DNA from: Saccharopolyspora hordei
GTDB taxonomy: Bacteria > Actinomycetota > Actinomycetes > Mycobacteriales > Pseudonocardiaceae
Direction of reading: 5' to 3'
NCBI RefSeq assembly: GCF_013410345.1
Contig: NZ_JACCFJ010000001.1
Coordinates: 2,145,001 to 2,209,000 of the forward strand
Length of the DNA: 64,000 nucleotides
Positions 6,471 to 24,195 of the stretch are shown here, piece after piece. The notes below the pieces were generated by a model. That model saw nothing but the letters and a program-made list of their open reading frames with translations. It searched no databases and was not told the origin of the DNA. The number at the start of each line of letters is the position of its first letter. Within the stretch, counting starts at the first letter, position 1. The position numbers were made by a program, and so were the translations under genes.

Positions 6471-6694
6471 TTCACGCGTCCTTCGGCGTAGCTGACATGG
6501 GGGCTCGCGCAGAATAGATGATGTGCGCTGCGCACCCCGTCGTCGGGTGATGCGGGCAGTGTGCGGGAGACCGCTAGGGTGACCGGAGCGGCCGGTCGCC
6601 GTTGCGAGATCGCGGGTCCCGCTGGAACCGTGGTCGGGTACCCGGAGGAACCGCAGCCCGGGACTGCGGTCAGGCGCCACGAGGAGGTCGGCGG

Positions 6695-16297: not shown

Positions 16298-16324
16298 TAC
16301 GATGTCTGTATACCAGCGATATGC
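16298..16324. promoter_or_regulatory. Promoter and putative GntR operator, copy 1
   Basis: A plus-strand -10 (TACGAT, 16298-16303) is followed after 4 nt by GTATAC (16308-16313) and by TATGC (16320-16324). The pattern GTATAC-n-A-n-C-nn-TATGC recurs at 18324-18340 with the same distance to a -10. It lies between the divergent hydrolase and GntR genes, overlapping the expected start of GntR transcription. Confidence 0.65.
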
Positions 16325-16340
16325 AACAAAGGGGTACTCG

Positions 16341-16967
16341 TTGCCGTCCGGACGCGAACTCGCCTACGCCCACCTCAAGGACGCCGTCCTCAGCGACCCG
16401 GCGATGCAGGGGCAGTTCGTCAACGAGCAGGCCCTCGCCGACGAGATCGGGGTGTCCCGCACGCCGATCCGCGAAGCACTGCTGCTGCTCGCCGCCGAGG
16501 AGCTGGTGCAGCTGGTGCCCAAGCGCGGGGCCTACGTCGCGCCGGTCGGCGGTCGGGAGATCCGCGAGCTGTTCGAGGTCCGCGCCGTGGTCGAGCGCTA
16601 CGCGGCCCGGCGCGCGATCGAGCTCGACGCGGTGCCGGTGGCCGAGATGCGGACCGAGCTCGACGGCCAGCGCGCCCTCACCGCCGACGACGAGGCCCGC
16701 GCGTTCATCGACCACGACCACCGGTTCCACGCCGCCCTGGTCCGCGCGGTCGGCAACGACCTGCTGACCAAGACCTACGACGGGCTGCGCGCCCGGCAGG
16801 TCCGCGCGGGCATCGTCGCGCTGTACTCCAGCGGCGACCGCCGCAAGGCGGTGCTGGCCGAGCACGAGGCCATCCTCGGGGCCCTGGTGGCCGGGGACGC
16901 GGCGGCCGCCGAGGAGGCGATCACCGCGCACCTGGCGGCCACCCAGCAGGTCCTCATCGAGGGCTGA
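16341..16967 (+). CDS. GntR family (FCD subfamily) transcriptional regulator
   Basis: Encodes 208 aa. An N-terminal winged helix (about 8-72) includes the typical recognition stretch VNEQALADEIGVSRTPIREAL. The C-terminal all-helical FCD ligand domain (about 80-205) carries the metal-binding pattern with Asp/His residues (DHDHRFHAAL and EHEAIL). Such regulators sense carboxylic acids. TTG 16341 is preferred because AAAGGGG lies 6 nt upstream; an in-frame ATG at 16302 would place the operator inside the coding region. It ends 8 nt from the convergent MHS transporter gene. Autoregulation and control of the three neighbours is inferred from shared operator-like sites. Confidence 0.87.
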   Translation: MPSGRELAYAHLKDAVLSDPAMQGQFVNEQALADEIGVSRTPIREALLLLAAEELVQLVPKRGAYVAPVGGREIRELFEVRAVVERYAARRAIELDAVPVAEMRTELDGQRALTADDEARAFIDHDHRFHAALVRAVGNDLLTKTYDGLRARQVRAGIVALYSSGDRRKAVLAEHEAILGALVAGDAAAAEEAITAHLAATQQVLIEG

Positions 16968-16975
16968 CGGCGGTC

Positions 16976-18265
16976 TCACCGCGCGTCGCGGCGGCCCAGC
17001 GCGAGGCCGACCAGCGTCACCGCGCACGTCGCCACCAGGTAGGCCGCCGGGGCCACCCAGGTGCCGAAGTGCGCGAACAGCGAGGTGAACAGCAGCGGGG
17101 CCAGCGCGCCGCCGACCACGCCCGCCAGCGTGTAGGCCAGCGACGCCCCGGTGGAGCGCAGCGCCGGGCTGAACTGCTCGGACACGAACGCCGCCTGCGG
17201 GCCGTACATCAGGGCGTGCCACACCAGGCCGACGACCACCCCGAGGACGAGCATCGTCGCCGAGCCGCCCTCGATCATCGGGAAGAAGACGAACGGCCAC
17301 ACGCCCGCGCCGACCGCGCCCACCGCGTAGACCCGGCGCCGCCCGAGCCGGTCGGACAGCGCACCGGCCAGCGGCATGAGCACCAGCTGCAGCGAGGAGC
17401 CGAGCATGACCCCGGTGACCGCCCAGCTCTTGGGCAGCTGCAGCTGCTGCGTGGCGTAGGTGAGCACGAAGACGGTGAACAGCGCGTAGAGCACGTCGGG
17501 GCCGACGCGGGAGAGGATCGCCGACACCAGCGCCCGCGGCTCGCGGGTGAGGACCTCGCGCACCGGCGCCCCGGCCTGCTCGCCCCTCTCCTGCAGCTGC
17601 TTGAAGACCGGGGTCTCCTCCAGCCGCACCCGGATCCACATGCCGAACAGCACCAGCACCGCGGAGACGAGGAACGCGACCCGCCAGCCCCAGGCCAGGA
17701 ACTGCTCCTGGGTGAGCGTCGCGGCCAGCACCGCGAGCACGCCGTTGGCCATGAGGTTGCCCGCGGGCGGGCCGATCTGGGCGGCGGACGCCCAGAACCC
17801 GCGGTGCTTCTCGCTGCCGAACTCGCTGGACAGCAGCACCGCGCCGCCCCACTCGCCGCCGATGCCGACGCCCTGCGCGAACCGCAGGACCACCAGCAGC
17901 ACCGCGCCGAGCGCGCCGACCTGGCCGTGCGTGGGCAGCAGTCCGATGAGGAAGGTGGAGATGCCGGTGACCAGCAGGGTGATGACGAGGACCTGCTTGC
18001 GGCCGAGGACGTCGCCGAGCCGGCCGAACACGAAACCGCCCAGCGGGCGGGAGACGTAGCCGACGGCGTAGGTGGAGAACGCCAGCAGCGTGCCGGACAG
18101 CGGGTCGTGGCTGGGGAAGAACAGCTGGCCGAACACCAGCGCCGAGGCCACCGAGTAGGCGGCGAAGTCGTACCACTCCAGGGAGGTGCCGGACAGCGAG
18201 GCGACGAACGCCTTGGCCAGGTCCTTGCGAGGTGGCCGCGCGGTGGCGGGGAGGGCTTGAGTCAT
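16976..18265 (-). CDS. MFS transporter, metabolite:H+ symporter (MHS) family
   Basis: Encodes 429 aa with 12 predicted membrane helices. The start LSGTSLEWYDFAAY is the MHS signature; GRLGDVLGRKQ after helix 2 and DRLGRRRVY after helix 8 are the two conserved major-facilitator loops, and GIGGEWGGAVLL fits helix 5. Relatives import shikimate, citrate, alpha-ketoglutarate, proline-betaine and similar carboxylates with protons. AAGGA lies 5 nt before ATG 18265. It is divergent from the DUF2848 gene across the second GntR-like site. It is expected to import the substrate of the neighbouring hydrolases. Confidence 0.9.
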   Translation of the reverse strand: MTQALPATARPPRKDLAKAFVASLSGTSLEWYDFAAYSVASALVFGQLFFPSHDPLSGTLLAFSTYAVGYVSRPLGGFVFGRLGDVLGRKQVLVITLLVTGISTFLIGLLPTHGQVGALGAVLLVVLRFAQGVGIGGEWGGAVLLSSEFGSEKHRGFWASAAQIGPPAGNLMANGVLAVLAATLTQEQFLAWGWRVAFLVSAVLVLFGMWIRVRLEETPVFKQLQERGEQAGAPVREVLTREPRALVSAILSRVGPDVLYALFTVFVLTYATQQLQLPKSWAVTGVMLGSSLQLVLMPLAGALSDRLGRRRVYAVGAVGAGVWPFVFFPMIEGGSATMLVLGVVVGLVWHALMYGPQAAFVSEQFSPALRSTGASLAYTLAGVVGGALAPLLFTSLFAHFGTWVAPAAYLVATCAVTLVGLALGRRDAR

Positions 18266-18313
18266 CGAGGTCCTTGTCGTGCGACTTGCCGTGTCGAGGC
18301 CCGGGTCAGTTGT

Positions 18314-18340
18314 GATACTGAATGTATACAACCCGTATGC
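18314..18340. promoter_or_regulatory. Promoter and putative GntR operator, copy 2
   Basis: GATACT (18314-18319) is the likely -10 for the DUF2848 gene. Four bases later come GTATAC (18324-18329) and TATGC (18336-18340), with the same spacing as in copy 1 at 16298-16324. It lies between the divergent MHS transporter and DUF2848 genes. Confidence 0.65.
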
Positions 18341-18356: not shown

Positions 18357-19034
18357 GTGTTTCCACTGCGTTTCGATGTCAACGGCGAGACCGTCGAGGT
18401 CCCGGTGACGACCGTGCTCAACGGCGGCTACGCGGGCCGCAGCCAGGAGGACGTGGCCGCGCACGTCGCCGAGCTCGCCGAGCTCGGGGTGCCCGCGCCG
18501 ACCCGGACGCCGTGCCTGTACCCGGTCGCGCCCTACCTGGCGATGCAGACCGAGCAGGTGCCGGTCCAGCACGACCGCACCTCCGGCGAAGCGGAGTGGG
18601 CGCTCGTCGTCGCCGGCCCGGAGGAGCGCGACGTGCTGCTCACGGTGGCCTGCGACCACACCGACCGGGCCCTGGAGGTGCACGGCGTGGCGTGGAGCAA
18701 GCAGGCCGGTCCCGACGTGCTGGGCGGCCGGGCGTGGCGGCTGGTCGACGTCGCCGACCGCGTCGACGAGCTCACCCTCACCGCGTGGGCCGGGGGCCGG
18801 CAGATCCAGCGGGGCACCCTCGCCGAACTGCTGCCGCCCCAGTACTGGCTCGACGAGCTGCGGCAGCGCGGTCTGCTGCGGCCCGGCACCGTGCTGCTGT
18901 CCGGCACCATCCCGATGGACGCCGAGGTCGACCAGTTCGCCGACTCCTGGCGGGTGGAGCTCGGCGACCCGCAGACCGGTGACACCCTCTCCTGCGAGTA
19001 CCGCCTCGACCGGATGCCCGAGCCGGTGGCGTGA
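18357..19034 (+). CDS. DUF2848 family protein
   Basis: Encodes 225 aa, the size of DUF2848 proteins. Recognisable features are the opening RFDVNGETVEVPV, VLNGGYAGRSQEDVAAHVAEL, the central PTRTPCLYPVAPYL, and GTVLLSGTIPM near the end. The family is distantly reminiscent of fumarylacetoacetate-hydrolase-like folds and is usually found beside carboxylate or amide catabolic genes; its reaction is not established. GTG 18357 has GGAGGGG upstream. Context (MHS importer, nitrilase-type hydrolase, GntR regulator) suggests a role in breaking down the imported compound. A 12-bp hairpin follows the stop. Confidence 0.8.
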   Translation: MFPLRFDVNGETVEVPVTTVLNGGYAGRSQEDVAAHVAELAELGVPAPTRTPCLYPVAPYLAMQTEQVPVQHDRTSGEAEWALVVAGPEERDVLLTVACDHTDRALEVHGVAWSKQAGPDVLGGRAWRLVDVADRVDELTLTAWAGGRQIQRGTLAELLPPQYWLDELRQRGLLRPGTVLLSGTIPMDAEVDQFADSWRVELGDPQTGDTLSCEYRLDRMPEPVA

Positions 19035-19145: not shown

Positions 19146-20735
19146 GTGTTCGAACGTCGTGGCTCGCTGCCAGCCCTCCTCGTCGCCCTGGCCCTGCTCG
19201 GTGCCGGGTGCGCGGCGCCGTCCTCGCCCGGGTCGTCCGACCCCGGGTCCCTGCTGCTCGCCGACGGCTACGAGCCGGAGAGCCTGAACCCGCTGCTGGG
19301 CTACGGGGCGGAAGGGGCCGCCAAGTTCTACGACGGGCTGCTGGCGTTCGACGGGCGTGCCGAGCTGCGGCCCGCACTGGCCGCCGAACCGCCGCAGTCC
19401 TCCCCGGACGCCAAGACCTGGACGGTGAAGCTGCGCGACGGCGTGCGCTTCCACGACGGCACCCCGTTCGACGCCGAGGACGTGGTCGCCACCTACCACG
19501 CGGCCATCGACCCCGCCTACGCCTCCACCGTCAGCTCCGACTACGCCATGCTCGCCGACGTGCGGGCGCTCGACCCGCACACCGTGCAGTTCGACCTGAA
19601 GATCCCGTACTCGGCGTGGCCGTCCAAGTTGGTGCTGGGCATCGTGCCGAGCGAGAAGCTGGCCACCCCGGAGCCGCTGGAGAACTCCGAGCTCAACACC
19701 AAGCCCGTCGGCACCGGCCCGTACGAGCTGGTCGAGTGGCGGCAGGGCGACCAGATGACCTGGAAGGGCAACCCCGACTACTGGGGCGGCGCACCGGCCA
19801 TCGGCGAGGTCACCGTGGTGTTCGCCAAGGACGACAACACCCGTGCCCAGCGCCTGCTCTCCGGCGAGTTCGACGGCACGGTGCTGCCGCCGGTGCTCGC
19901 CGAGAGCGTCGGCCGCGACGGCTACCGCACCGTGCACCACCGCACCGCCGACTTCCGCAGCATCGCCCTGCCCAACGACCACCCGGTCGCCGGTGACCGG
20001 GCGGTGCGCACCGCGCTGAACCTCGCGGTCGACCGGCAGGGCATGATCGACGCGTTGCTGGGCGGCCACGGCACCCCCGCCCACGCGCCGATCCCCGAGT
20101 CCATGGGCGCCGCCTTCGAACCGGCCGCCCGGTTCGACTTCGACCCCGAGCGGGCCAAGGCGCTGCTCGACCAGGCCGGCTGGCGGCCCGGCCCCGACGG
20201 GGTCCGCGAGCGCGACGGGGTGCGCGCCCAGTTCACGGTGATGTACTTCGCCGACGACAGCCTCCGCAAGGACCTGGCCACCGCCTTCGCCTCGGACGCC
20301 CGGGCGATCGGCATCCAGGTCGACCTCGCCGGGGTGGACCGCTCCGCGGTCCCGGCGCGCATCGGCCACGAGGGCATCGTGCTCGGCGGCGGCAACCCGA
20401 TCGACCCCGACCCGCAGGTCTACACCAGCCTGCACTCGTCGGTGATCGGCACCGGCACCTACAACAACCCGGGCCGGTACCGCAACGCCGAGGTGGACGC
20501 CGCGCTCGACCGCGCCCGCCAGGAGCTCGACCCGGCCGAGCGCGCGGAGCTCTACCGGCAGGCCCAGCGCGCCTACGTCGCCGACCCCGGCCTGGTGTAC
20601 CTGGCGTTCATCGACCACAGCTACGTGATGCGCGAGGGCCGCTGGACCGGGTACCAGCCGCCGGTCGAGCCGCACACCCACGGGACGACCTGGGGGCCGT
20701 GGTGGAACGTCGAGGACTGGGAACCGCAGGCGTGA
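19146..20735 (+). CDS. ABC transporter substrate-binding lipoprotein (peptide/nickel family)
   Basis: Encodes 529 aa. A lipoprotein signal ends in the lipobox LLGAGC, so Cys22 would be lipidated and anchored outside the membrane. The rest is a family 5 (OppA/NikA-like) binding protein: NPLLGYGAEGAAKFYDGLL, the signature WTVKLRDGVRFHDGTPFDAEDVV, and GPYELVEWRQGDQMTW. It captures an oligopeptide, nickel chelate or similar ligand and hands it to the permease pair encoded next. The stop overlaps the first permease start (GTGA). The specific ligand is not evident. Confidence 0.9.
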   Translation: MFERRGSLPALLVALALLGAGCAAPSSPGSSDPGSLLLADGYEPESLNPLLGYGAEGAAKFYDGLLAFDGRAELRPALAAEPPQSSPDAKTWTVKLRDGVRFHDGTPFDAEDVVATYHAAIDPAYASTVSSDYAMLADVRALDPHTVQFDLKIPYSAWPSKLVLGIVPSEKLATPEPLENSELNTKPVGTGPYELVEWRQGDQMTWKGNPDYWGGAPAIGEVTVVFAKDDNTRAQRLLSGEFDGTVLPPVLAESVGRDGYRTVHHRTADFRSIALPNDHPVAGDRAVRTALNLAVDRQGMIDALLGGHGTPAHAPIPESMGAAFEPAARFDFDPERAKALLDQAGWRPGPDGVRERDGVRAQFTVMYFADDSLRKDLATAFASDARAIGIQVDLAGVDRSAVPARIGHEGIVLGGGNPIDPDPQVYTSLHSSVIGTGTYNNPGRYRNAEVDAALDRARQELDPAERAELYRQAQRAYVADPGLVYLAFIDHSYVMREGRWTGYQPPVEPHTHGTTWGPWWNVEDWEPQA

Positions 20736-21706
20736 GCCGTGCCATCGGCCGCCTGGTGCTGCGGCGGATCGGGTTCGCCGTGCCGGTGCTGGTGGTCGTG
20801 GCGCTCGGGGTGTTCCTGCTCGCCGCGGCCTCGCCGTTCGACCCGATCCACCAGTACTACGGCGTGGAGCTCTACACCGCCTCGGCCGCCGACATCGCGC
20901 GGGTGCGCGCCCAGCTGGGCGTCGACGACCCGGTGCTGGTGCAGTTCTGGCACTGGCTGACCGGGCTGGTCGGCGGCGACCTCGGGGTGTCCCGCTCGTT
21001 CCGGCAACCGGTGGCGCAGGTCGTCGCCGAGCGCCTGCCGTGGACGGTCCTGCTGGCCGCCACCGGGCTGCTGCTGGCGGTGCTGCTCGCGCTGGTGCTG
21101 GGCACGGTCGCGGCGTGGCGGCAGGGCGGCTGGGTGGACCGCGTCGTCACCGCCATCGGCCACGCGCTGGAGGGCGTGCCGCCGTTCGTGCTGGCGCTGC
21201 TGTCCATCGCGGTGTTCTCGCTGGGCCTGGGCTGGTTGCCGGTGGCGGGGCTGACCGACGCCGGCCAGACCGTCTCGGTCGGCCAGGTCGTGGAGCACCT
21301 GGCGCTGCCCGCGCTGGTGCTGGGCGTGTCGCAGTCGCCGTGGCTGGTGCTGCACGTCCGGCAGTCGATGCTGACCTCGCTGGCCGAGGACCACGTGACC
21401 GGGGCGCGGGCGCGCGGCCTCGCCGAGCGGGTGGTGGTGCTGCGGCACGCGCTGCCGACCGCGCTGCTGCCGTTCGTCACGCTCATCGGCGCGCGCATCC
21501 CGGAGCTGGTCACGGGGGCGGTGCTGGTGGAGGAGGTCTTCTCCTGGCCGGGGCTGGCCGCCGCCGTGGTCACCGCCGCGACCGCGGTGGACTACCCGCT
21601 GCTGGCGGTGCTGACCCTGGTGGCGACCGCGGCGGTGCTGCTCGGGTCGCTGCTCGCCGACGTCGCCGCCGTCCTGCTCGACCCGAGGGTGGCCGCCGAT
21701 GGCTGA
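20732..21706 (+). CDS. ABC transporter permease (DppB/NikB-like)
   Basis: Encodes 324 aa with six membrane helices and the long periplasmic loop after helix 1 (FDPIHQYYGVELYTASAADI, then LGVDDPVLVQFWHWLTGL) typical of the first permease of peptide/nickel ABC systems. The cytoplasmic EAA loop (TGARARGLAERVVVLRHALP) contacts the ATPase. GTG 20732 overlaps the upstream stop by four bases; its end overlaps the next permease by eight. Confidence 0.92.
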   Translation: MSRAIGRLVLRRIGFAVPVLVVVALGVFLLAAASPFDPIHQYYGVELYTASAADIARVRAQLGVDDPVLVQFWHWLTGLVGGDLGVSRSFRQPVAQVVAERLPWTVLLAATGLLLAVLLALVLGTVAAWRQGGWVDRVVTAIGHALEGVPPFVLALLSIAVFSLGLGWLPVAGLTDAGQTVSVGQVVEHLALPALVLGVSQSPWLVLHVRQSMLTSLAEDHVTGARARGLAERVVVLRHALPTALLPFVTLIGARIPELVTGAVLVEEVFSWPGLAAAVVTAATAVDYPLLAVLTLVATAAVLLGSLLADVAAVLLDPRVAADG

Positions 21707-22571
21707 GATGACCGCGCAGTGGCGGCCCGCGGGCCGCACCCGGACCGCCCGCGCGCACCCGCGGACCCGGTACTGGGGCGCCCTGGTGACGCTGGTGGTG
21801 CTGGTGGTGGCCGCGTTCGCCGTGCCGGTGCTGTTCGGCAGCGAGTCCGTGCGCTACGACTCGGTCCGCCTCGCGCCGAGCCCGGCGCACCCGTTCGGCA
21901 CCGACTCCGGTGGCCGCGACCTGTTCGTGCAGTCGCTGACCGGGCTGCGGGTCTCCTTGCTGGTGGCCGGGACCAGCGCTGCGGTGTCCACTGTGCTCGG
22001 TTCGCTGGTGGGCGCGGTCGCCGGGGCGCTCGGCGGGTGGCCGGACCGGTTGCTGATGCGTCTGGTGGACACCGTCAACTCCGTCCCGCACCTGCTGCTG
22101 GGCATCGTGATCGTCGCGCTGTACCGGGGGAGCCTCGGTGCGGTGGTGCTGTCGATCGCGCTGACGCACTGGACGACGGTGGCCCGCATCGTGCGCTCGG
22201 AGGTGCTGTCGCTGCGCAGCCGCCCGTACGTCGAGGCGGCCATCGCGGGCGGCTCGTCGCGGTGGCGGATCCTGGTGCGGCACCTGCTGCCGGCGATCGT
22301 GCCGCAGGCGGCCCTGTCCGCGGTGCTGCTGGTGCCGCACGCGGTGTGGCACGAGACCGCGCTGAGCTTCCTGGGGCTCGGCCTGCCGCCGCACCTGGCC
22401 AGCATCGGCACCATCCTCGGTGCCGGGCGCGAGGCCGTGCTGCTCGGCGCCTGGTGGATCGTGCTGTTCCCGTCGCTGCTGCTGGTGGCGACCACCCTGG
22501 CGGTGTCCGGGCTGGCCGCGACCTGGCGCGACCGCGTGGTCCCCCGACGCCGATCGGAGCTGGCCCTGTGA
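21699..22571 (+). CDS. ABC transporter permease (DppC/NikC-like)
   Basis: Encodes 290 aa. After a basic N-terminus comes one helix (ALVTLVVLVVAAFAVPVLF), the family motif HPFGTDSGGRDLFVQSLTGLR, then five more helices. The EAA loop is VEAAIAGGSSRWRILVRHLLP. It pairs with the preceding permease. ATG 21699 overlaps the previous gene by eight bases; ATG 21708 in the same frame is an alternative. Confidence 0.92.
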   Translation: MAEMTAQWRPAGRTRTARAHPRTRYWGALVTLVVLVVAAFAVPVLFGSESVRYDSVRLAPSPAHPFGTDSGGRDLFVQSLTGLRVSLLVAGTSAAVSTVLGSLVGAVAGALGGWPDRLLMRLVDTVNSVPHLLLGIVIVALYRGSLGAVVLSIALTHWTTVARIVRSEVLSLRSRPYVEAAIAGGSSRWRILVRHLLPAIVPQAALSAVLLVPHAVWHETALSFLGLGLPPHLASIGTILGAGREAVLLGAWWIVLFPSLLLVATTLAVSGLAATWRDRVVPRRRSELAL

Positions 22572-22621
22572 CCGCGAGGAGGTACGGGAACGGACTCGGC
22601 GACGAGGTGGGAGGTCGGCGG

Positions 22622-23566
22622 ATGAGTGAGGCCTTGCTCGAGCTGCAGCGGTTGTCCGTCCGGTTCCTGCTTGGGCGGGACGTGCGGGTGCGCGCCGTGA
22701 CCGACGCGACGCTGCAGCTGCGGCCCGGCCGGGTGCTGGCCCTGGTCGGCGAGTCCGGGTGCGGCAAGTCCGTGCTCGCCTCGGCGCTGCTCGGGCTGCT
22801 GCCCGGCAACGCCGAGGTGCGCGGCCGGGCGCTGCTGCGCGACGGCCTCGACCTGCTGTCCGCGCCGGAACCGGTGCTGGCCGGGCAGGTGCGGGGACGG
22901 CGGATCGGGCTGGTGCCGCAGTCGGCGAGCACCCACCTGACCCCGGTGCGCACCGCGCGCAGCCAGCTCGTCGAGACCATCGAGGCCCTGGACGGCGCGC
23001 TCGACGCGGACACCCTCGCCGAGCGCGTCGGCCTGGACCCCGCCGACCTCGACCGGTACCCGCACGAGCTCTCCGGCGGCATGGCCCAGCGGGTCGCGCT
23101 CGCCCTGGCGCTGGCCGGCGACCCGCAGGTCATCCTCGCCGACGAGCCCACGACCGGGCTCGACCGGCCGCTGGTGCACCGCACCGTGGACCTGCTCGCC
23201 GAGACCGCCACCGAGGACCGCGCGGTGCTGCTCATCACCCACGACCTCGCCGCGGCCCGGCGGGTCGCCACCGACGTCGCGGTGATGTACGCCAGCCGCA
23301 TCGTGGAGGCCGGGCCGGCCGCGGAGGTGCTCGCCGAGCCCTGGCACCCCTACACCGCGGGGTTGCTGGGCGCCCTGCCCGACGGCGGGTTCCGGCCGAT
23401 CCCCGGCCACCCGCCGGTGTTGACCGAACTGGACCGCATCGAACGGGAGTGGGGTTGCGTGTTCTGCCAACGGTGCCCGGACGTGCCCGGCTTCGCGCCG
23501 TGCACGGGTGACCCGGAGCTCGTCGACCACGGTGGCCGCTGGGTCGCCGCGCACCCGCCGTGCTGA
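22622..23566 (+). CDS. ABC transporter ATP-binding protein (DppD/NikD-like)
   Basis: Encodes 314 aa: Walker A GESGCGKS (near residue 45), Q-loop LVPQSAST, signature LSGGMAQRVALALAL, Walker B VILADEPTTGLD and switch His in LLITHD. The C-terminal ~60 residues carry the oligopeptide-transporter extension with Cys residues (CVFCQRCP and FAPCTG), which in this family may bind an iron-sulfur cluster or metal. GGGAGG precedes ATG 22622. It overlaps the second ATPase gene by seven bases and should form a heterodimer with it. Confidence 0.92.
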   Translation: MSEALLELQRLSVRFLLGRDVRVRAVTDATLQLRPGRVLALVGESGCGKSVLASALLGLLPGNAEVRGRALLRDGLDLLSAPEPVLAGQVRGRRIGLVPQSASTHLTPVRTARSQLVETIEALDGALDADTLAERVGLDPADLDRYPHELSGGMAQRVALALALAGDPQVILADEPTTGLDRPLVHRTVDLLAETATEDRAVLLITHDLAAARRVATDVAVMYASRIVEAGPAAEVLAEPWHPYTAGLLGALPDGGFRPIPGHPPVLTELDRIEREWGCVFCQRCPDVPGFAPCTGDPELVDHGGRWVAAHPPC

Positions 23567-24195
23567 GCGCGACCGGTGTGGTCGCCGGGTACCGGCGCGG
23601 CGAACCGGTGCTCGACGGCGTCTCGCTCGACCTGCCCGCCGGCACGGTGGTCGGCCTGGCCGGGCCCAGCGGCTGCGGCAAGTCCACCCTGGCCCGGGTG
23701 CTGGGGCTGCTGCACGAGCCGTGGTCCGGTCAGGTGTCGCTCGACGGCGAGCCCGTCGGCGGCTTCCGGCACGCCACCCCGAAGGCGCAGCGCGCCGCCA
23801 TCGGCATCGTCTTCCAGCACCCGCGGCCGGCCGTCGACCCGCGGTTCACCCTGCGCGAGGTCATCGCCGAGCCGTTGCGCGCCACCGGCGCGCCCGGGGA
23901 CGTGGACGAGCTGGCCGAGGAGGTCGGGCTGACCCCCGAGCTGCTCTCCCGGCGCCCGCACGAGGTCAGCGACGGCCAGCTGCAGCGGGCGTGCCTGGCG
24001 CGGGCGCTCGCGCTGGAGCCCCGGTACGTGGTCTGTGACGAGATGACCGCCATGCTCGACGCCTCCACCACGGCGGCGCTGGTGCAGGTCGTGGACCGCC
24101 GGGTGCGCGAGCACGGGACCGGGGTGCTGGCGATCAGCCACGACGAGGACCTGCTCGGCCACTGGGCGGCCCACGTGGTGCGCCTGGACGGGTGA
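23560..24195 (+). CDS. ABC transporter ATP-binding protein (DppF/NikE-like)
   Basis: Encodes 211 aa, shorter than its partner and without the C-terminal oligopeptide extension. Walker A is GPSGCGKS; Walker B is VVCDEMTAMLD, with Met-Thr replacing the more usual Pro-Thr. The signature motif is VSDGQLQRACLARALA, that is Asp instead of the first Gly of LSGGQ. His in AISHDEDLL is the switch residue. With the previous gene it powers the transporter. The altered signature suggests an asymmetric ATPase pair. Last gene of the operon; a 131-nt gap follows. Confidence 0.9.
   Translation: MLSATGVVAGYRRGEPVLDGVSLDLPAGTVVGLAGPSGCGKSTLARVLGLLHEPWSGQVSLDGEPVGGFRHATPKAQRAAIGIVFQHPRPAVDPRFTLREVIAEPLRATGAPGDVDELAEEVGLTPELLSRRPHEVSDGQLQRACLARALALEPRYVVCDEMTAMLDASTTAALVQVVDRRVREHGTGVLAISHDEDLLGHWAAHVVRLDG

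Follow-up and report, generated by a model that had tools for sequence, protein, structure and literature searches.

Do two short, similar sequences place four genes of Saccharopolyspora hordei under one regulator? The genes, which alternate in direction, lie in a 64,000-nucleotide stretch of contig NZ_JACCFJ010000001.1 (positions 2,145,001 to 2,209,000; hereafter the window) and encode a nitrilase-superfamily C-N hydrolase (NIT), an FCD-type GntR regulator (gntR), an MHS-like transporter (MHS) and a DUF2848 protein, in the layout NIT(-) gntR(+) MHS(-) DUF2848(+). A preliminary description, made from the letters of the window, had proposed that both divergent intergenic regions carry the same promoter-operator module and that the GntR protein controls all four genes through it. 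We followed up this proposal in the window, in the host genome (5.78 Mb, one contig) and in two surveys of other genomes; the window genes were read from the sequence and from profile matches. The results indicate that, very probably, one repressor controls four genes whose products would import and break down a small nitrogen-containing acid.

Two sites built of boxes 11 bp apart

In the region between NIT and gntR (region A), the hexamer TACGAT is followed, after a gap of 4 nt, by GTATACCAGCGATATGC; in the region between MHS and DUF2848 (region B), GATACT (18314-18319) is followed after the same gap by GTATACAACCCGTATGC. The coordinates and internal spacing of the two proposed modules were therefore confirmed. 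In both regions, exactly 16 nt lie between the end of the site and the codon at which the plus-strand gene is taken to start. When up to two mismatches were allowed, a scan of the window returned just these two matches, against 0.02 expected from 100 shuffles. The host genome as a whole contains two exact copies of the 17-bp pattern, none with one mismatch and seven with two, while the reversed control pattern gave five matches with up to two mismatches; the looser pattern GTATAC-N5-RTATGC occurs exactly twice, both times at this locus. Recurrence of the pattern at random positions, named beforehand as an outcome that would speak against the proposal, was thus looked for and not seen. Since the 17-bp pattern was drawn from the two sites themselves, the independent evidence has to come from conservation.

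We first set the locus against 100 genomes, those of the host and its relatives. Close DUF2848 orthologues (at least 68% identical) were present in 29 of these genomes, host included, and GTATAC stands upstream of DUF2848 in 29/29; the other outcome named beforehand, a lack of conservation in relatives, was therefore not seen either. Between NIT and gntR, GTATAC was found in 25 of the 26 loci in which both genes lie side by side (L041, L060 and L064, which have no adjacent pair, were left out of this count), and the 26th has GTATGC-N5-GTATGC. Exact GTATACN5RTATGC occurs 74 times in the 100 genomes: by our own classification, for which the surroundings of three of the strays (L110, L117 and L118) were viewed, 52 matches belong to this locus, 9 to an OsmC-like gene and 13 lie elsewhere; the reversed pattern occurs four times. 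One of the 52 (L114) belongs to a remnant locus in which operator A is kept and the regulator looks truncated by eye; a search of that genome (G021) gave no DUF2848 match. A second survey comprised 80 named loci, the best 80 of 163 relatives, with 1.27 Mb in total. Here the exact pattern was present in 132 copies, counted on both strands, and 132/132 lie in the two intergenic regions, so that its recurrence there extends across Actinomycetota. The full gene set in its alternating layout was found in 69 of the 80, and the other widely shared neighbours of the locus are lineage-specific. Within the phylum DUF2848 itself is uncommon: of 396 genomes surveyed, five have it, one of them the host.

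In the 80 named loci, all 132 copies fall in windows running from 280 bases before to 70 bases after the start of DUF2848 or gntR. Around the 156 GTATAC anchors in these windows, a second box resembling GTATAC, GTATGC or GCATAC stands at +11 in 151 cases and at -11 in 52, and the next commonest offset accounts for only 12. The site is thus a phased array of boxes that follow one another at exactly 11 bp, one helical turn, with two boxes at the regulator/nitrilase region and three at the transporter/DUF2848 region. Among distinct region-B sequences from the named loci and the window, GTATAC is present in 77/77 and the upstream ATAC (-9 to -6) in 65/77; among distinct region-A sequences the corresponding figures are 68/73 for GTATAC and 0/73 for an upstream ATAC of the region-B type. 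The window has TGATAC-N5-GTATAC-N5-GTATGC in region B, and a Streptomyces plasmid locus shows the clean three-box form, GCATAC-N5-GTATAC-N5-GTATGC. Because the central GTATAC is palindromic in itself, the array allows two readings, dimer sites placed side by side or inverted repeats that overlap.

The two -10 hexamers of the preliminary description fared differently. A TANNNT hexamer lies 4 or 5 nt before the region-A GTATAC in 18/18 loci of the same genus and, among the seven loci from other genera that have GTATAC there, in two, which favors a -10 element in region A; in region B, the proposed hexamer GATACT overlaps the upstream box of the array (box 0). We consequently dropped the idea that the two hexamers form a matched pair, since what is conserved is TANNNT in region A, within the genus, and in region B an ATAC that belongs to a third box.

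Sites and regulator in split and rearranged loci

Loci that have been split or that have another regulator, together with the extra site at an OsmC gene, provide a natural experiment on how the operator travels with the regulator. Three Kutzneria genomes carry MHS/DUF2848 and gntR/NIT at separate places with an array at each, that of gntR/NIT having one mismatch to the pattern. In S. indica (G012/G494), NIT, gntR and MHS are together, DUF2848 lies 54 kb away, and a site is kept at each place. The break in this species (L115, L255 and L041) falls between the transporter and DUF2848, and 12 residues are missing from the N-terminal end of the transporter match. Two Rhodococcaceae plasmids, whose DUF2848 proteins are 70-72% identical, have an IclR gene in place of gntR; neither shows GTATAC upstream of DUF2848, and a GTATAC at position 6638 of one plasmid is inside a gene. 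Among distant loci, L072, L073 and L074 (DUF2848 32-34% identical) have arrays of equal period with up to two mismatches, which precede the transporter in L073 and L074 and, in L072, a short open reading frame (nitrilase-like by eye) followed by DUF2848.

In some relatives, the site is also found at a gene outside the locus. It overlaps the ATG of an unlinked OsmC-like gene in 11/11 orthologues at least 71% identical to L105, nine of them with the exact site (L105, L106, L107, L108, L109, L111, L112, L113 and L116) and two with one mismatch, and in 0/20 of the more distant OsmC genes examined. This sample comprised 31 loci, namely 30 of the listed matches and L119; the 11 genes with the site are those of L120-L130. 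GTATAC is positioned there as the -10 element of an apparently leaderless promoter would be. Judged by this site, the regulon of these relatives has a fifth member, OsmC. The host genome does not contain this orthologue, its sole match being a more distant OsmC gene. Among the 80 named loci, five have an OsmC gene inside the locus, beside the nitrilase gene.

Taken as a whole, this comparative evidence strongly supports the assignment of the sites to the linked GntR regulator, and with it the earlier claim of a single FCD-GntR regulon over four genes: gene set and layout are conserved, both sites are conserved, sites are kept after the locus has split, and the IclR plasmids lack the site at DUF2848.

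Several observations weigh against so simple a picture. The counts given above are not independent, since many of the loci come from closely related organisms and the unnamed and the named set have loci in common. Kibdelosporangium banguiense (L204) keeps the sites by DUF2848, and its best GntR match is just 33% identical. The search for a GntR protein in the two IclR plasmids covered the plasmid records only, not the chromosomes. A Priestia locus with GntR, MFS, DUF2848 and nitrilase genes has no GTATAC, which means that gene set and operator can separate; nor was GTATAC found in six proteobacterial regions that were scanned or in L067, L068, L069 and L071. For the minus-strand genes (transporter and nitrilase), inspection by eye, with no promoter scan run, revealed no clear -35/-10 pair. 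Finally, the substrate assignment is weak, since the transporter scores under the MHS cut-off and NIT under the specific equivalog cut-offs (see below).

Gene products and the proposed pathway

The features of the locus are collected in Table 1.

Table 1. Genes and candidate control elements of the locus, in window coordinates.
Feature	Position	Strand	Basis or remark
NIT, nitrilase-superfamily C-N hydrolase, 263 aa	15488..16279	-	Pfam CN_hydrolase, 135 bits
TACGAT, -10-like hexamer of the GntR promoter	16298..16303	+	promoter function inferred
Operator A (candidate), GTATAC-N5-ATATGC, two boxes 11 bp apart, between NIT and GntR	16308..16324	+	
FCD-type GntR regulator, 208 aa from TTG	16341..16967	+	GntR and FCD domains
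MHS-like MFS transporter, 429 aa	16976..18265	-	MFS_1, 128 bits
Box 0 of operator B (candidate), TGATAC, 11 bp upstream of GTATAC	18313..18318	+	
Operator B (candidate), boxes 1 and 2, GTATAC-N5-GTATGC, between MHS and DUF2848	18324..18340	+	
DUF2848 protein, 225 aa, GTG start after GGAGGGG	18357..19034	+	PF11010, 245 bits

The regulator consists of an N-terminal winged helix (PF00392, 52.9 bits, cut-off 27) and a C-terminal FCD domain (PF07729, 84.7 bits, cut-off 24.3). We placed its start at TTG because AAGGGG stands upstream and because the in-frame ATG at 16302 falls within the promoter, where it would precede the likely start of transcription. The protein matches PDB 3fms (E 2e-21), and one Asp and three His align with Asp/His of that structure; we take these residues to be the FCD metal ligands. 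The start of NIT was set at ATG because GGAGGG is found upstream. Among PDB sequences it matches mouse Nit2 best (2w1v, E 2e-30), so that its closest solved relatives are of the Nit2 type, and it shares with them the CN_hydrolase domain. Mouse Nit2 has omega-amidase activity. NIT differs in that none of the NCBIfam equivalog and exception models reaches its cut-off on it (NF033621, deaminated glutathione amidase, gives 192 bits against 355), and an omega-amidase is a candidate role only. The best NCBIfam match of the transporter is TIGR00883 (metabolite/H+ symporter); because its 379 bits are under the curated cut-off of 443.45, we call it MHS-like only.

The AlphaFold2 model of DUF2848 (pLDDT 92.4) matches structures with the fumarylacetoacetate hydrolase (FAH) fold in Foldseek and VIA-align, at 10-22% identity. 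Residues E78, E80, D100, R104, K115, Q151 and T184 are invariant in 37/37 sequences and align to equal residues of 6v77; the E-x-E, D..R, K, Q and T so aligned are presumably the metal and catalytic residues. DUF2848 is accordingly predicted, from the model, to be a metal-dependent enzyme with an FAH fold. Since it has its own family, PF11010, and scores 23.1 bits against PF01557 (gathering score 23.9), we speak of an FAH-fold protein and not of a member of FAA_hydrolase. It differs from known FAH enzymes (fumarylpyruvate hydrolase, HpcE-type isomerases and FAHD1) in this low identity, in having a family of its own and in its linkage to amidases. An amidase or nitrilase gene is clustered with DUF2848 in 16/16 annotated plasmid regions examined; the partner is of the nitrilase type in the Gram-positive loci seen and is annotated as 'amidase' in the proteobacterial ones.

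Some of these clusters hold further genes. DUF2848-amidase operons of Paracoccus/Thioclava (L240, L243 and L248) include genes for a TRAP transporter and for a 'putative hydro-lyase', and in Thioclava (L243) 5-oxoprolinase genes adjoin the operon. The Rhodococcus/Prescottella plasmid loci L236 and L246 combine DUF2848 and a nitrilase with an IclR regulator and a TIM-barrel protein, with a pyroglutamyl-peptidase gene nearby.

Together, these data are best explained by a four-gene catabolic regulon in which an FCD (FadR-type) GntR repressor acts on the 11-bp box arrays, is released by an effector and thereby governs uptake and breakdown of a substrate; we give this reading a probability of about 0.8. 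When the substrate is absent, GntR dimers would occupy the arrays, which overlie the two divergent promoter regions, and would keep all four genes repressed, gntR included. Binding of a carboxylate effector at the FCD metal site would cause the DNA to be released; this effector would probably be the substrate itself or an intermediate. The transporter would import an oxo-acid amide or a cyclic amide, the FAH-fold DUF2848 would catalyse a metal-assisted step of the enolate type, be it hydrolysis, decarboxylation or tautomerisation, and the nitrilase would free ammonia from an amide; between them, DUF2848 and the Nit2-like amidase would open or cleave the compound to yield ammonia and a central 2-oxo acid. 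We infer both the class of the substrate, a carboxylate or amide, and any order of the two enzyme steps.

A bolder version, which we offer tentatively as being rather less likely than its negation, is that DUF2848 has an activity not yet described for the FAH superfamily, is paired with an amidase across phyla and cleaves or opens a cyclic or oxo-acid amide for nitrogen salvage. In Actinomycetota it would be controlled by a three-box phased operator holding two or three FCD-GntR dimers around a central palindrome, and in some species OsmC would join as a fifth member with a detoxifying role. A literature search returned no paper on such a nitrogen-salvage pathway.

Competing readings and known systems

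That the two regions resemble each other by coincidence deserves mention, since the motif is short and was found by eye; with 0.02 matches expected in the window and GTATAC in all 77 distinct region-B sequences, its probability is negligible, and conservation refutes it. It is also improbable that the conserved elements are core promoters, with GTATAC supplying a -10 (TATAC), and not operators. This would suit the OsmC genes, where the promoter that fits best by eye uses GTATAC as its -10 (L120: TTGCCA, 17 nt, TATACC, 6 nt, ATG), and the upstream box of region B, for which an extended -10 is a possible reading (TGTGATACT). The conservation, however, spans two or three boxes at a fixed period of 11 bp and so exceeds a hexamer. 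Exact copies of the pattern, too, are for the most part found at these genes (61/74 and 132/132), whereas core promoters would occur genome-wide; overlap with a promoter is, moreover, what a repressor site would show. About equally improbable is that the array is the target of a different regulator, such as a second GntR paralogue, and that the linked GntR gene is near by accident. Actinomycete genomes are rich in GntR paralogues (19-30 matches in each of five genomes), and L204 keeps its sites without a close GntR orthologue. Yet site and GntR orthologue co-occur even in the split loci of Kutzneria and S. indica, the two plasmids with IclR for GntR have no site upstream of DUF2848, and GTATAC fits NyGTM-N0-1-KACNy, the consensus given for the FadR subfamily in PMC4494728.

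The remaining alternative concerns the chemistry and not the regulation. The genes could belong to a route for heterocycles of the pyrrole-2-carboxylate type, in which hydroxylation of the ring would take place elsewhere, DUF2848 would turn the hydroxylated ring, or a tautomer of it, into alpha-ketoglutaramate and the Nit2-like amidase would convert this to 2-oxoglutarate and ammonia. We regard this as unlikely, though distinctly less so than the other alternatives. Distant DUF2848 loci do encode an HpaB-type monooxygenase (L067 and L071-L074 by model; L244, L250 and L252 by annotation), several add a flavin reductase and a cupin as well as a nitrilase or amidase, and three of them, L072-L074, carry the GTATAC array of equal period mentioned above. 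Such loci possibly serve a heterocycle or aromatic-amide pathway. The module in the window, however, has no monooxygenase, the one HpaB gene of the host is far off (C1:3063152) and has no exact or one-mismatch site, and HpaB enzymes take many substrates, so that aromatic-amide pathways would fit equally. Flavin reductase and cupin were identified in L067 by model and in L250 and L252 by annotation, and L072 has in addition a UbiD-type decarboxylase.

Returning to the proposed GntR regulon, its operator resembles those of the FadR (FCD) subfamily in the fit of GTATAC to the consensus. In PMC4494728, weaker extra boxes are described 7-12 nt from the centre of the GntR site, on one or both sides, in many groups. 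Here, in contrast, conservation of the extra boxes nearly equals that of the centre; they lie strictly 11 bp from it, and at the DUF2848 promoter they flank it on both sides. E. coli NanR, a GntR-type repressor of a catabolic pathway with the operator (GGTATA)3 (PMC8012715), is similar in having three like boxes in a row. The NanR boxes are listed as direct repeats (PMC4494728), whereas here a palindrome occupies the centre with flanking boxes 11 bp away. Cooperativity of NanR needs an N-terminal extension of 32 residues (PMC8012715); since only 6 residues precede the 3fms match in the 208-aa regulator of the window, cooperativity, if any, would have to use another surface. Extra GntR half-sites and the three-box NanR operator are thus already known, and what is new is the apparently unstudied enzyme and the strict, symmetric 11-bp array. 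Our literature searches found nothing on a GntR protein with GTATAC and FCD, on OsmC with nitrilase and GntR, or joining ketoglutaramate, nitrilase and fumarylacetoacetate hydrolase; they found no paper on DUF2848, and PF11010 turned up just three, whose titles all concern malaria or related parasites. The locus provides DUF2848 with a predicted fold, catalytic residues, a recurrent amidase partner, a transporter, a regulator and a precise candidate operator. Its function can consequently be approached directly, as the effector of the regulator would name a compound of the pathway.

Peptide-type ABC transporter genes adjoin DUF2848 in the window (19146-24195), the first encoding an SBP_bac_5 protein. 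We considered this operon as a further member of the regulon and rejected it: a match to the solute-binding protein was present in 21 of the 84 loci scanned (four of these loci span just 3.6 kb), and no additional site occurs in the window. Such genes, without the operator, also stand beside DUF2848 in several other genera.

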